A stretch of DNA of 64,000 nucleotides from Haloferax elongans ATCC BAA-1513 (GTDB lineage: Archaea > Halobacteriota > Halobacteria > Halobacteriales > Haloferacaceae). The stretch is from the NCBI RefSeq assembly GCF_000336755.1, contig NZ_AOLK01000022.1:1-64000 (forward strand). Direction: 5' to 3'. The position numbers and the translations under genes are program-made. The stretch's first letter is position 1; each line of letters starts with the position of its first letter. This document shows positions 36,066 to 41,812 of this stretch, one piece after another. The notes beneath the pieces are model-generated. The model made no database searches, had not been told where the DNA came from, and was given only the letters and a program-made list of their open reading frames with translations.

Positions 36066-36203
36066 ACCCAGTAGTCGTACATTCGAAAATCTATTAACAT
36101 TAATTATGTAAAAACAGACCGTCAGACTCTGTGGAATTCGAAATCATCACGGAAAACGACTGAGTGCGTGCATTACTAACTCCGACGGCGACAATTCGTG
36201 TGC

Positions 36204-36845
36204 ATGAGTAGCACGACACCGACTCCGGTGACGATACCTGCCGACGGCGTCGAACTCGAAGGGGACCTCGCGGTTCCGTCGGGGGCGTCAGGCCTCGTCG
36301 TCTTCGCGCACGGCAGCGGCAGTAGTCGCAAGAGCCCGCGAAACAACTTCGTCGCGGAGGTCATCCGCGAGCGGGGTCTCGGAACGCTGCTTTTCGACCT
36401 CCTGACCGAGGAGGAAGACCAGACCTACGAGACTCGGTTCGATATCTCGCTTCTGACACAGCGCCTCCTCGCGGCGACCGAGTGGGTCCGGAGCAGAGAC
36501 GACACCGCCGACCTCGATATCGGCTATTTCGGGTCGAGTACGGGTGCAGCCGCGGCCCTTCTCGGGGCGGCCGAACTCTACGACCAGACCGGTGCGGTGG
36601 TCTCCCGCGGCGGCCGCGTCGACCTCGCGGAAGAACGTCTCGACGAGGTGACTGCTCCGACGCTGTTCATCGTCGGTGGCGCGGACGACACCGTACTCGA
36701 ATTCAACCGCGACGCGTTCGGCGAGCTCCACTGCGAGAAATCACTCGAAGTCGTCGAAGGTGCTGGCCACCTGTTCGAAGGTTCCGGCGAACTGGAGGAA
36801 GTCGCCGACCTCGCGGCCGACTGGTTCGAGACGCATCTTGGGTAA
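36204..36845 (+). CDS. Alpha/beta hydrolase, dienelactone-hydrolase-like
   Basis: A 213-residue serine hydrolase. The oxyanion region is VVFAHGSGSSRKSPRN at residues 32-47, nucleophile S112 lies in GSSTG, acid Asp in GGADDTV and His in GAGHLFEG near the end. Such single-domain enzymes hydrolyse esters or lactones. The start at 36204 (ATG) is preferred to the GTG six bases earlier. It is divergent from the E1 alpha operon. Confidence 0.87.
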   Translation: MSSTTPTPVTIPADGVELEGDLAVPSGASGLVVFAHGSGSSRKSPRNNFVAEVIRERGLGTLLFDLLTEEEDQTYETRFDISLLTQRLLAATEWVRSRDDTADLDIGYFGSSTGAAAALLGAAELYDQTGAVVSRGGRVDLAEERLDEVTAPTLFIVGGADDTVLEFNRDAFGELHCEKSLEVVEGAGHLFEGSGELEEVADLAADWFETHLG

Positions 36846-36873: not shown

Positions 36874-37029
36874 TCACCGCGAGAACTGGAGGTCTTTCGC
36901 GGGGTCCTCGACGACGACCCACCAGCGAAGGTCGTCTTTCGGGTGCCGTCTCTCGACGTATTCTTCGAGCTGTGCACCGATGTCGAAGTCGCGCCCGCAG
37001 AGGTTGCAGCGGTGGTGTCGCTTTCCCAT
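36874..37029 (-). CDS. 51-residue Cys/His microprotein
   Basis: A short minus-strand ORF reading MGKRHHRCNLCGRDFDIGAQ and onward through LEEYVERRHPKDDLRWWVVV to DLQFSR. C8-NL-C11 and the ERRH segment (His 29) form a C2H2-like zinc finger; R-W-W-V-V-V follows as a beta strand. Third-position GC is haloarchaeal, unlike the AT-rich island next to it. A perfect inverted repeat lies 10-24 bases before its ATG. Function unknown. Confidence 0.72.
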   Translation of the reverse strand: MGKRHHRCNLCGRDFDIGAQLEEYVERRHPKDDLRWWVVVEDPAKDLQFSR

Positions 37030-37038
37030 GTGAATATA

Positions 37039-37053
37039 TAACAATGGTTGTTA
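37039..37053. promoter_or_regulatory. Inverted repeat TAACAA-3-TTGTTA before the microprotein gene
   Basis: Perfect six-base arms flank TGG, 10-24 bases upstream of the minus-strand ATG at 37029 and next to ATATATA (37034-37040). The place suits an operator over the transcription start. Confidence 0.5.
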
Positions 37054-37293
37054 CGAAGTATGTTAGCTCTAGGTTTAATAGTACGACTTGACTTTCACGC
37101 CCCCAAAGCTCCTTATGTCTATCATCCGCGCGCCCACCAGACCTTAGACTATCCACTCAGCACAATTCTCTGGGCTGTTAACTCCTTAGTTCGAATATAT
37201 GTGGCACGACATATCCTATCATCATTTACCTCTACTAGAACGGTAGTGTCAATTAGAAATAATTAAATATTTTATCATAATCTGGTCGAATGT
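37054..37293. promoter_or_regulatory. AT-rich spacer and promoter of the protease gene
   Basis: About 240 bases with low GC and no convincing gene. ATTAAATATTTTA (37262-37274) lies about 27 bases before the protease ATG, which fits a leaderless haloarchaeal promoter. A 72-codon ORF across 37048-37266 lacks coding character. Confidence 0.5.
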
Positions 37294-38460
37294 ATGTCCC
37301 CAAAGAAAGTTGGTGGATTAGAGTTGACTCGTCGAAAGGCCCTCTCGACACTTGGTGCTGCAGTTACGATGTCCGGGCTAGGAACTACGGTACAAGCCTC
37401 GGAAAGTAAGGTTGACCACCCTATGTTGGTCTCAGGTGATAATGTCGTTAAATGGCTATCTGTGCCAGCAGATTGGGAACAACATCGAAAACATGCAATA
37501 GAGGCTCTTGGAACTGCGAGAGACAGGCTCGGGACGACACCGAAGGTCGTTGGAACGGAGTTAGAGCAGTCCCGAGACCGTTATGGCGGCCACAATGGAT
37601 TCCAGATCTCTGTAATCCTTGACAAAGATGACAAATCTGTACAGCGCGAAAGAGTTCGCAATAACTTACCTGAGGAGGTTGATGACATTCCGATTTCTAG
37701 TAGAGACAGTGCAGAGTCTTTTGCGGGTTCTTGTGATGATCAAGATACTGTTGATGACAACTGTACGAATAATGAATCGACAGATACCGTCCAAGGAGGA
37801 CAAAATGTCGGTTGGGTCGAACAGGGGAATGGAACCTCGTGTTGTGGTGTGAAATATAATGGAGAACAATGTCTCCTCACTGCAGCACACAACTTCTATA
37901 ACCCTGGTAATTGCAGTAGCAGTGATGAAAATGATCTTATTGGTCGAGTAGCAGATGCTGCGGAAGAAGAAATTGGAGAAGTTATTGAGGCGGATATTAA
38001 GGGTGATTGGGCTCTCATCGACGATAGCCGTGGAGGCGATTACCCCAACGAGATTGATGACAACGACGAGTTCCCTTCCGTCAAAGGGCATGTTACTAAA
38101 CCCACATTAGATCATTGGGCAAGTGATTCATCGAACTCGCCCTGTGTATACAATATGGGTCGGCAAACTGGTCTCACATCTGGTAAAATCATGAATACAA
38201 ATGCGAATTGGACTGCTATTTGTTCTAATATGAGAAACCATGGTGTGAGATCACGCGCGAATTTTGCGGATGGTGATTCTGGTTCACCAACGTACCACTT
38301 GGAGGATGGAGATGCTTATATTATTAGCGTGACCGGATACGGATATGACCCGTACGGATTTGCATGTGGCCAGAAAAAATCAGACAAATCTGGAGGAATT
38401 GGTGCATACTGGTTAGCTGAGAATAAGAATGTCAAGTTCGGGGAGAACAGCACAGTATAG
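37294..38460 (+). CDS. Tat-exported trypsin-like serine protease, AT-rich gene
   Basis: A 388-residue protein with a Tat signal (LTRRKALSTLGAAVTMSGLG, residues 11-30) and a chymotrypsin-fold triad: H199 in LLTAAHNF, D238 in GDWALID and S329 in ADGDSGSP. Residues 40-165 look like a propeptide region rich in Asp and Asn. Nine Cys (for example CC at 183-184, C193, C207, C358) suggest extracellular disulfides. Codon use (AAT, ATT, GAT, AGA) differs sharply from all neighbours, a sign of recent transfer. It probably cleaves proteins outside the cell; no inhibitor or immunity gene is recognised beside the following small membrane protein. Confidence 0.85.
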   Translation: MSPKKVGGLELTRRKALSTLGAAVTMSGLGTTVQASESKVDHPMLVSGDNVVKWLSVPADWEQHRKHAIEALGTARDRLGTTPKVVGTELEQSRDRYGGHNGFQISVILDKDDKSVQRERVRNNLPEEVDDIPISSRDSAESFAGSCDDQDTVDDNCTNNESTDTVQGGQNVGWVEQGNGTSCCGVKYNGEQCLLTAAHNFYNPGNCSSSDENDLIGRVADAAEEEIGEVIEADIKGDWALIDDSRGGDYPNEIDDNDEFPSVKGHVTKPTLDHWASDSSNSPCVYNMGRQTGLTSGKIMNTNANWTAICSNMRNHGVRSRANFADGDSGSPTYHLEDGDAYIISVTGYGYDPYGFACGQKKSDKSGGIGAYWLAENKNVKFGENSTV

Positions 38461-38475
38461 TTCCCAAACCGACAA

Positions 38476-38643
38476 ATGAATAAAATTAAATGGGTGACAC
38501 GGCTTCTGTTTGCCGCTCTGGTAGTGGCATCGGTATATGTTTCAATATATCATCCACTCGTCAAGGAGATACACATCCTCATCACGCTCGTTTCGATTGG
38601 GATCATTATCTTCCTAATTGAACGGTTTCTAGTTGAGGTCTAA
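38476..38643 (+). CDS. 55-residue two-helix membrane protein beside the protease
   Basis: A short AT-rich ORF starting 15 bases after the protease stop. It reads MNKIKWVTRLLFAALVVASV, then YVSIYHPLVKEIHILITLVS and a second hydrophobic stretch ending ERFLVEV. Two membrane helices (about 7-27 and 33-50) flank a short loop. Its base composition matches the protease gene and not the flanks, so the two probably arrived together. A role in protease anchoring or self-protection is possible but only inferred. Confidence 0.7.
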   Translation: MNKIKWVTRLLFAALVVASVYVSIYHPLVKEIHILITLVSIGIIIFLIERFLVEV

Positions 38644-38700
38644 ACTCGGTCCAATCGAGTTTCATTGTTGTCATAATATTTGAAATTGATATATTCAACT

Positions 38701-38717
38701 TTTGTAACTGGTACAAA
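38701..38717. promoter_or_regulatory. Inverted repeat TTTGTA-5-TACAAA before the DsbA-like gene
   Basis: Perfect six-base arms with spacer ACTGG end 10 bases before the ATG at 38728. The position overlaps the expected transcription start, so a repressor or redox regulator may bind here. Confidence 0.55.
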
Positions 38718-38727
38718 TACAAATCCC

Positions 38728-39360
38728 ATGACCAACGACGAAGCCGGTCGAATCACCATCTACTCCGACTACGTCTGTCCGTTCTGTTACCTCGGTCGCC
38801 AGTCGCTCTCGCAGTATCAAGCGACCCGAGACGAGGAACTCGACATCGACTGGCATCCCTTCGACTTGCGAAGCCACAAGCGCCGCCCCGATGGCAGTAT
38901 CGACTCGTCCGTCGAGGACGGGAAAGACGACGAGTACTACGAGCAGGCCAAAGAGGGCGTTCGCCGCCTCCAAGAGAAGTACGGTGTCGAGATGACGCTC
39001 GACATCTCGATGGACATCGACTCGCTTCCAGCCCAAGTGGTCTCGTACTATCTGAAGGAGCATTACGACTACGAGACGTGGCTTGCCTTCGACGAATCGG
39101 TCTTCGAGGCGCTCTGGCAGGACGGCAAGGACATCGGCGACGAAGCACTGCTCGTCGACCTCGCCGAATCTGTCGGTGTCGATGGCGGCGAAGTCGAATC
39201 GGCATTGGACGACGAGACGCTCCGGGCCGAAGTACGAGAGAAGTTCACCGAAGCGCAGCGCCACGGGGTGACGGGCGTGCCGACGTTTGCGTACGATGGA
39301 TACGCTGCTCGGGGTGCGGTTCCGCCGGAGCAGTTAGAGCGACTCGTCGAGGGCGTGTAA
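38728..39360 (+). CDS. DsbA/FrnE-family thiol oxidoreductase
   Basis: A 210-residue thioredoxin-fold protein of the FrnE/2-hydroxychromene isomerase-like DsbA group. The active-site motif is C17-PF-C20 (SDYVCPFCYLGRQ). The inserted helical domain spans about 60-165, and the cis-Pro loop is GVTGVPTF near 186-193. No signal peptide, so it acts in the cytoplasm, probably in thiol or oxidative-stress chemistry. The ATG at 38728 is chosen over 38680, which lies in AT-rich promoter DNA. Confidence 0.9.
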   Translation: MTNDEAGRITIYSDYVCPFCYLGRQSLSQYQATRDEELDIDWHPFDLRSHKRRPDGSIDSSVEDGKDDEYYEQAKEGVRRLQEKYGVEMTLDISMDIDSLPAQVVSYYLKEHYDYETWLAFDESVFEALWQDGKDIGDEALLVDLAESVGVDGGEVESALDDETLRAEVREKFTEAQRHGVTGVPTFAYDGYAARGAVPPEQLERLVEGV

Positions 39361-39895: not shown

Positions 39896-40327
39896 TTATG
39901 CCTCCCAATTATCTTCGAGTATTCGGCCGAGGGCGACTTCCATCTCTTCGAACTCACTCAGTTCGAGTTCGTCGGTCGTGACGATGACGCCGTGGTCGCC
40001 GACGACGACGCGGCCGATGAAGCCCTCCGAGAACACGCGGAGTGTGAACTCGTACTCACCGAATTCGGGGTTCGACTCTCTGTCGGTCTCTCGTCCGTAC
40101 GACTCTTGAGGGCCGAAGCCCGTTCGTTCGCTTTCGACGAGTCCAGCCTTCGCTGTGCGAGCCTTCTCTTCGTCACCACCGTAGAGGTCTTGTCGAACGT
40201 AGAGCAGGTCGAAGTCATCCCGCGTGAAGTAGATGACACTCCGCAGTGCGTCTCCGAGTGTGGGTCGGCAAGTCGAGACGATGCTGTCGGCAAAGGCTGT
40301 CGCTGCGTCACCAGACGTCTGTTCCAT
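39896..40327 (-). CDS. Conserved haloarchaeal protein (DUF7522-like)
   Basis: A 143-residue soluble alpha/beta protein: GDALRSVIYFTRDDFDLLYVRQDLYGG, then a charged helix, then EYEFTLRVFSEGFIGRVVVGDHGVIVTTDELELSEFEEM. I recall similar short proteins in haloarchaea under DUF7522, sometimes next to signalling genes. The ATG at 40327 is preferred to the GTG two codons before. It lies 58 bases downstream of, and on the same strand as, the chemoreceptor-like gene. Confidence 0.75.
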   Translation of the reverse strand: MEQTSGDAATAFADSIVSTCRPTLGDALRSVIYFTRDDFDLLYVRQDLYGGDEEKARTAKAGLVESERTGFGPQESYGRETDRESNPEFGEYEFTLRVFSEGFIGRVVVGDHGVIVTTDELELSEFEEMEVALGRILEDNWEA

Positions 40328-40385
40328 GAGCACATATGGCGCTCTAACGTATTTCTGCTTCTCGCCTACCTACCCTGTTGCGAAT

Positions 40386-41669
40386 TCAGTCCTCGATGGC
40401 GTCGGTCTGTACCGTCACCGAATCGGTGTTGACATCGACAGCGTCGATATCGGCGGACTCGTCGTCGTCGAGTTTGAAGCTATCGACGAGCTCGTAAATC
40501 GTCTCACTCGCGTCGCTGAGGTCGATAGTCACGGTTGCGACGTCGTCCATCGCGGCAGTCTGTTCGTCAAGTCCGGCGGCGATTTGTTCGAGTGACGCGC
40601 TCATCTGCTCTGCGCGCGCGGACAGGTCGTCGACGTTTCCACTCACTTTCTGGGTACTTTCGGCTTGCTGCTCGACGGCTCGGTGAATCTCTGTAACGCC
40701 GTCGTTCGTCGAGTCGATGCGTTCTTGAATCTTCTCGAAGACGTCGACCGTCTGTTCTACTGCCTCGACTCCCACACGAACGTCTGCGTTGGCTTCACGG
40801 ATACCGTCCACAACTTCGTCTGTTTGTTTTTGGAGAGTGTCGATAATTTCCGATATCTCTCCGGTCGACTCCTGTGAGTCCGCCGCGAGCGACTTCACCT
40901 CGTTTGCGACAACGGCGAAGCCATCGCCGGCTTCCCCGGCACGCGCCGCTTCGATGTTTGCGTTCAAAGCGAGTAGCCCAGTTTGGTCCGCAACGTCTGC
41001 GATGATCTCTACGATTTCTTCGACGTCGTGCATCTGCGACTCGAGTTTATCTATCTCAGCAGCGACCTGTCCCGACGTCTCGGTCGCCGCCCGTATTCGA
41101 GTCAACGCCTCTTCGACCTCATCTGCACCATCTGCGGCGATGACCGTCGCCTCTTCTGTACGGTTTTGTATCTCGTCGGTCGACGCGGTAACCTCCTCGA
41201 TTGACGCAGACAGGTCGCCGAGCGTCCCCGTTACCGACGTCGTCTGGTGGGCGAGCGCTTCGACGCCCTCGGAGACCTCTCTCGCGGAGGCGTCAATCTC
41301 TTCGACAGAGTTCGTAACTTCCTCTGCCACGGACCCGACCTGCTGTCCCGCCGCAGAGACGTCTTCCGATAGCTCGGCCGAACTGTCGACGACACGGCCG
41401 ATTCTATCGACTGCGAGCGAAAGCTCGTTTGCAGCCTCCAGAAATGCGTCGTGAGCCTCGTGCATCTCTGCAGTGTCTGACGGAGGCTCTGGAATCGTGG
41501 GGTCGACGGTTAAATCACCCTCTGCAAGACGAGACAGGGACTCTGTCAGTGACTGTAGCGATTCAGTCTGGTATTCTGATAAATCCTGACACGATTGCAA
41601 CTCGTTGTCGACCGTTCGTGGCTCAGCTTCGTCTTCCCCCAAAGCCACTGCCATGATGTTTGATAACAT
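40386..41669 (-). CDS. Soluble methyl-accepting chemotaxis-like transducer
   Basis: A 427-residue protein with no membrane helix. Residues 37-95 look like a HAMP-like helical segment (LTESLSRLAEGDLTVDP). The rest is one long coiled coil with the highly conserved signalling hairpin at 224-262 (ADQTGLLALNANIEAARAGE) that contacts CheA and CheW. No sensor domain is recognisable N-terminally, so it may sense through a partner. ATG at 41669, or 41654. No che or fla genes are nearby. Confidence 0.85.
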   Translation of the reverse strand: MLSNIMAVALGEDEAEPRTVDNELQSCQDLSEYQTESLQSLTESLSRLAEGDLTVDPTIPEPPSDTAEMHEAHDAFLEAANELSLAVDRIGRVVDSSAELSEDVSAAGQQVGSVAEEVTNSVEEIDASAREVSEGVEALAHQTTSVTGTLGDLSASIEEVTASTDEIQNRTEEATVIAADGADEVEEALTRIRAATETSGQVAAEIDKLESQMHDVEEIVEIIADVADQTGLLALNANIEAARAGEAGDGFAVVANEVKSLAADSQESTGEISEIIDTLQKQTDEVVDGIREANADVRVGVEAVEQTVDVFEKIQERIDSTNDGVTEIHRAVEQQAESTQKVSGNVDDLSARAEQMSASLEQIAAGLDEQTAAMDDVATVTIDLSDASETIYELVDSFKLDDDESADIDAVDVNTDSVTVQTDAIED

Positions 41670-41812
41670 TGGTCTCTCTCCATCCAGTCGTCTTGACCAA
41701 ATTGCTATAAGTGGTGCCGTCCAAATATCAGGACCGATAACCACTGTGTATTCATGAATAAACAGAAAATCCCTACAATCCGATAGTATCTAGGAGAGCT
41801 CTTTACTAGCTT

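Follow-up and report, generated by a model that had tools for sequence, protein, structure and literature searches.

A putative Tat-exported streptogrisin-like protease and a separate small membrane protein gene in an AT-rich variable locus of Haloferax elongans

Between an alpha/beta hydrolase gene (ABH) and a DsbA-like gene of Haloferax elongans lies an AT-rich stretch that encodes a predicted exported protease and, just downstream, a 55-residue membrane protein, which raises the question of whether the two genes form a unit that was imported together. The original prediction, made for the 64,000-nucleotide stretch of DNA analysed here (the window), had taken them for such a unit, possibly a secreted antagonist with a membrane partner for anchoring or immunity. 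We favour, with a probability of about two in three, a more economical reading, in which the protease would be secreted as a zymogen to digest proteins outside the cell, its gene having entered a variable locus by horizontal transfer, and the adjacent small gene would be a separate one, specific to the lineage, that forms no obligate pair with it.

An AT-rich interval in a variable locus

The sharp difference in composition that had been described for this stretch was borne out by our measurements. GC content is 0.438 over positions 37030-38720 against 0.627 for the whole window of this Haloferax genome, and GC3 falls to 0.392 in the protease ORF (z -8.4) and to 0.491 in the 55-aa ORF (z -6.2) when the 48 other genes of the window are taken as reference (0.783 ± 0.047), the flanking ABH and DsbA-like genes being normal in composition. 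Neither ORF was called by a codon model trained on haloarchaeal genes. The left part of the island (37045-37293) is non-coding. The zinc-finger ORF on its left side (L052; Table 1), which is native to the genus, is conserved in nearly all Haloferax genomes examined and absent from that of a sister species (G009), where the same interval lacks the protease.

Relative to ABH, the DsbA-like gene (L054, L055, L062-L064) occupies the other strand in the window genome and in G009 when these are compared with other Haloferax genomes, several of which carry it in the opposite orientation, so the interval between ABH and DsbA appears to be rearranged and variable, and to have been inverted as well as filled. 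In these other Haloferax genomes the locus holds neither a relative of the small gene nor a close copy of the protease. A recognisable element as the agent of insertion was considered and rejected, because no tRNA was found in the 64-kb window and no direct repeats flank the island beyond short chance pairs. Additionally, a 145-aa ORF and a chemotaxis-transducer-like ORF on the minus strand at 39896-41744 have GC3 values of 0.69 and 0.63, the lowest of the window's other genes, which may mean that a foreign or relaxed composition continues beyond DsbA.

Table 1. Coordinates of the features discussed in the text, in positions of the window
Feature	Position	Strand	Basis or context
ABH (alpha/beta hydrolase gene)	36198-36845		Left flank of AT-rich stretch
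Small zinc-finger ORF	36874-37044	minus	Left flank, beside ABH
TATA-like element TTAAATATTTT, ~26 nt upstream of protease start	37263-37273	+	Sequence reading; putative archaeal promoter
Tat-exported S1 (streptogrisin-like) serine protease, predicted, 388 aa, ATG start	37294-38460	+	ORF; triad and RR in alignment; profile match to streptogrisin B
Twin-arginine signal peptide, about residues 1-34	37294-37395	+	RR13-14 invariant in alignment
N-terminal domain, residues 36-140, likely pro-region	37399-37713	+	AlphaFold model of residues 36-146
Catalytic domain, about residues 166-388, GDSGSP at 327-332	37789-38457	+	Profile alignment to streptogrisin B; putative boundary
Two-helix membrane protein gene, 55 aa	38476-38643	+	ORF; shuffle test; 51% identical copy at same locus in G009
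Terminator-like hairpin, 9-bp stem, overlapping small-gene stop	38642-38662	+	Stem reading; fold z-score only -1.6
DsbA-like gene	38728-39360		Right flank of AT-rich stretch

The protease and the spread of its family

As judged from sequence profiles, the protease is a predicted Tat-exported S1 enzyme, closest to streptogrisin B. In an alignment (A1) of the window protein with nineteen haloarchaeal relatives, aligned over their full length at 24-37% identity, the triad residues H199, D238 and S329 and the twin arginines RR13-14, which are followed by a hydrophobic stretch, are invariant in all 20 sequences, and other invariant columns include C157, G228, G289 and G330. The exported trypsin-like protease that had been foreseen, with an intact triad and nine cysteines (at residues 147, 157, 183, 184, 193, 207, 284, 310 and 358), was thus recovered. 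The NCBIfam TAT model gives 12.2 bits, under its 16.7 cut-off, and it is the invariant arginine pair that supports the Tat assignment.

Searched alone, the window protease matched no Pfam or NCBIfam protease model, and a single-sequence search of the PDB gave nothing convincing; within the family, Trypsin_2 (PF13365) was matched by 10 of the 20 members and Trypsin (PF00089) by 3 (E <= 0.01). The A1 profile matched streptogrisin B in the PDB (E 3.9e-10) over profile columns 149-314, which align with residues 1-148 of the mature enzyme, and it also matched the Glu-specific protease 1hpg and 2sfa. The mature N-terminus of streptogrisin B, ISGG, aligns on a conserved GG at residues 168-169 of the protease, which suggests that residues 36 to ~165 are probably a pro-region. 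Modelled alone by AlphaFold, residues 36-146 form a beta-beta-alpha-beta-beta-alpha-beta domain with a mean pLDDT of 88.7. A fold search with this domain against the PDB returned no match with E <= 0.001 and no solved pro-region that resembles it, and the best match among viral models was an uncharacterised mycobacteriophage protein (E 8.8e-4). The AlphaFold model of the whole protein, with only five sequences as input, reached a pLDDT of 38.4, so the catalytic fold rests on the profiles.

The protease family was found in 26 of 197 relatives by protein search and, by profile search, in 156 of the 391 genomes of the class (55 of 86 genera), with a patchy distribution; the first 20-sequence alignment was too diverse for scanning the sequence collection. 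Within Haloferax, a full close copy occurs only in the window genome and in Haloferax gibbonsii ATCC 33959 (G008; contig NZ_AOLJ01000027.1). A further Haloferax genome (G002) holds one N-domain fragment and one remote copy; its ORF L145 905-1866 (minus strand) encodes the N-terminal domain only, with neither the RR nor a catalytic portion, and a 140-aa four-helix protein is encoded after it; a pro-domain standing alone in this way might be a remnant or else act as an inhibitor. Two remote relatives (E about 1e-11) lie elsewhere in the window genome, at G000:C5:81790-82302 and G000:C6:59488-60105, and G023, of the same taxonomic family, carries five or six divergent copies (L014, L028, L105, L106, L108), several with different anchored neighbours. 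In addition, some homologues are damaged (L030 1321-2629; L013), either split in two by a stop or a frameshift or interrupted by a stop within the reading frame, and such copies suggest that the gene decays in some hosts.

Plasmid copies are present in Halorussus, Haloarcula, Salinigranum, Halobacterium and Halomontanus, most of them annotated as 'hypothetical protein' and some near transposases or toxin-antitoxin genes. Furthermore, in 23 of 29 cases the GC content of the protease gene is at least 3 points lower than that of a 20-kb stretch from its own genome (mean -9 points). The odd composition, the patchy distribution and the plasmid copies in other haloarchaea all fit the import that had been suspected from the window. 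A phage origin was rejected, as no match was found in IMG/VR viral contigs or GenBank phages and PHROG gave a weak match only (E 0.025).

The small gene and its relation to the protease

The 55-residue ORF, which starts 15 nt after the protease stop as had been stated, encodes two hydrophobic helices joined by a short loop. None of 4000 dinucleotide shuffles was both open and as hydrophobic, the same being true for the G009 copy, so the ORF is more than chance. It was found in 2 of 391 genomes, and its only clear relative, full length and 51% identical, is that of G009, where it stands 75 nt after ABH and before DsbA with neither a protease nor a zinc-finger ORF between them; the ABH and DsbA proteins of the two genomes are 94% and 97% identical, respectively. 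Since G009 keeps the small gene at the same locus without the protease, this gene belongs to the locus and not to the protease. The two genes occur together only in the window genome, and no other protease homologue was found with a relative of the small gene adjoining, findings that speak against a two-gene unit with linked homologues and against a pair that moves together. The small gene is therefore genuine, but the protease does not have it as a conserved partner.

The 75-nt intergenic sequence of G009 bears no resemblance to the island of the window genome, and either G009 lost the protease or the window genome gained it later. The differences between the two small-gene copies are spread over the codon positions without bias (20/15/17), and 27 of 55 residues are identical against 25.2 expected from random placement of the differences, a substitution pattern that gives no sign of selection on the 55-aa protein; either the gene is weakly constrained or the comparison is too short.

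According to the reading that we favour, the protease would be made as a zymogen in which a Tat signal is followed by an N-terminal pro-domain of ~105 residues and then by the streptogrisin-type catalytic domain. The zymogen would be exported in folded form and probably cleave itself near residue 166, ahead of the conserved GG, and the mature enzyme would digest proteins outside the cell or at its surface. Its gene would have reached a variable locus in a single Haloferax lineage by horizontal transfer, and the small gene would be a separate, lineage-specific membrane hairpin gene of the same locus. The two may share a transcript, given the 15-nt gap and the hairpin after the second gene, yet they would be no obligate pair. 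Three points count against this reading: the N-domain resembles no pro-region of known structure and the model of the whole protein is of low confidence; an ancestral pair could have been broken up by loss in G009, where the zinc-finger gene of other members of the genus is missing as well; and many homologues have an anchored gene downstream, which a simple stand-alone enzyme does not predict.

Downstream neighbours, rival readings and known systems

This last point comes from a survey, prompted by the protein partner that had been proposed, of the genes downstream of 64 non-redundant homologues, 34 of them close, in which an anchored neighbour was defined as a co-directional ORF with a transmembrane segment or lipobox no more than 100 nt downstream and twenty 20-kb stretches of family-bearing genomes served as baseline. 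Such a neighbour follows 15 of the 34 close homologues, compared with 45 of 328 genes in the baseline when this rule is applied to them (p 6e-5) or 41 of 385 under a stricter gene caller (p 3e-6), with the qualification that the E-value cut for 'close' was chosen post hoc, that one clade gives four of the cases and that the set includes the window itself and a doubtful ORF (L002). The looser whole set gave 22/64 against 45/328 (p 1.7e-4). Among close co-directional neighbours, 15 of 16 are anchored, compared with 41 of 133 in the baseline (p 1e-6); about half of the homologues have no close downstream gene. Anchored genes also follow other Tat-like genes in 5 of 26 cases. The neighbours are of unrelated kinds, at least about nine families without common sequence, and include two-helix proteins of ~100 aa (L014, L007), multi-helix proteins of ~300 aa (L020, L021, L028, L106), lipoproteins (L008, L017, L108, L109, L019, L023) and others; Pfam gave no informative family for them, only weak Ig-like and pilin-like matches below cut-off. 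On the protease tree the anchored-neighbour label changes 11-13 times. Of the idea of a membrane partner, what stood is that many homologues adjoin a membrane- or lipid-anchored gene, but these genes belong to unrelated families and the 55-aa protein is not conserved. The enrichment of anchored genes downstream of the protease family is suggestive, not proof.

These data could point to a general module, in which the protease family is accompanied just downstream by a surface-anchored partner (a tether, inhibitor or substrate) that is swapped for unrelated proteins, the 55-aa hairpin being one of them. The enrichment, the number of partner families and the repeated changes on the tree all argue for such a module. 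We nevertheless consider it unlikely, because about half of the homologues have no gene close downstream, the partners share no sequence, the homologues are phylogenetically non-independent, the rate at other Tat-like genes has to be set against the enrichment, and the small gene persists in G009 without any protease. The stronger proposal of a haloarchaeal module not yet described, a mobile Tat-exported S1 zymogen regularly encoded with a downstream membrane- or lipid-anchored partner whose place (membrane or outer face) is kept and whose sequence is repeatedly replaced, seems to us quite unlikely. Such a pattern would suit a partner that tethers or curbs the protease at the cell surface, or that is shielded from it there.

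The protease might instead, by analogy, activate a halocin-like precursor, whether from its own strain or from another. There is a precedent within the genus, where secreted serine proteases cut precursors into active peptides: the Haloferax mediterranei subtilase HlyR4 acts in this way on HalH4 and on the precursor HFX_0892, other halolysins can stand in for it, and the protease that processes HalC8 has yet to be identified (PMC12893001). We regard this role as very doubtful here, since the known enzymes are subtilases with a D-H-S triad and not S1 proteases, and no precursor gene adjoins the protease at this locus. The antagonist with an immunity partner that the original prediction had put forward would agree with an exported protease, a membrane neighbour and an AT-rich variable locus, and the diverse neighbours in relatives would fit immunity. 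This is highly improbable, however: the small gene is unlinked to the protease elsewhere and kept without it in G009, there is no conserved immunity gene, and HlyR4, which has been studied best among the secreted proteases of Haloferax, is not directly inhibitory on its own (PMC12893001). Neither protein gave a PADLOC match, which counts against antagonism too and led us to reject a defence system as well.

Taken alone, the window presents an ordinary acquisition at a variable locus. Streptogrisin-like proteases are classically bacterial; the present family is known in kind, but it forms a large haloarchaeal set that occurs in ~40% of the genomes sampled from the class, with most members annotated as hypothetical. 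This Tat-type family offers proteases active in salt as well as candidates for the halocin-processing enzymes still being sought and, if the enrichment of anchored neighbours holds, it would point to a recurring control of a dangerous protease at the archaeal surface.

With streptogrisin B and streptogrisin-like S1 proteases (MEROPS S1E; PDB 1cso, 1sgd), the Haloferax protease shares the H-D-S order, the GDSG[GS]P motif, a RxGxTTGxxxG-like stretch, the GG at the mature N-terminus and an N-terminal extension ahead of the catalytic domain; it differs in its Tat-type signal, its own set of cysteines, its long acidic insertions and an N-domain without match among solved structures. The family is distant from both Pfam Trypsin_2 and Trypsin, which some relatives match (weakly for Trypsin_2) and the window protein does not. 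The halolysins HlyR4 and SptA (subtilase S8) are likewise exported haloarchaeal serine proteases in which a further region precedes the catalytic core (PMC12893001, PMC6085418). Identity with them was rejected, given the His-Asp-Ser order and the lack of a match to any subtilase model, and the fold is unrelated, the triad of HlyR4 being D154-H193-S347 (PMC12893001) in contrast to H199-D238-S329 in the Haloferax elongans protease.
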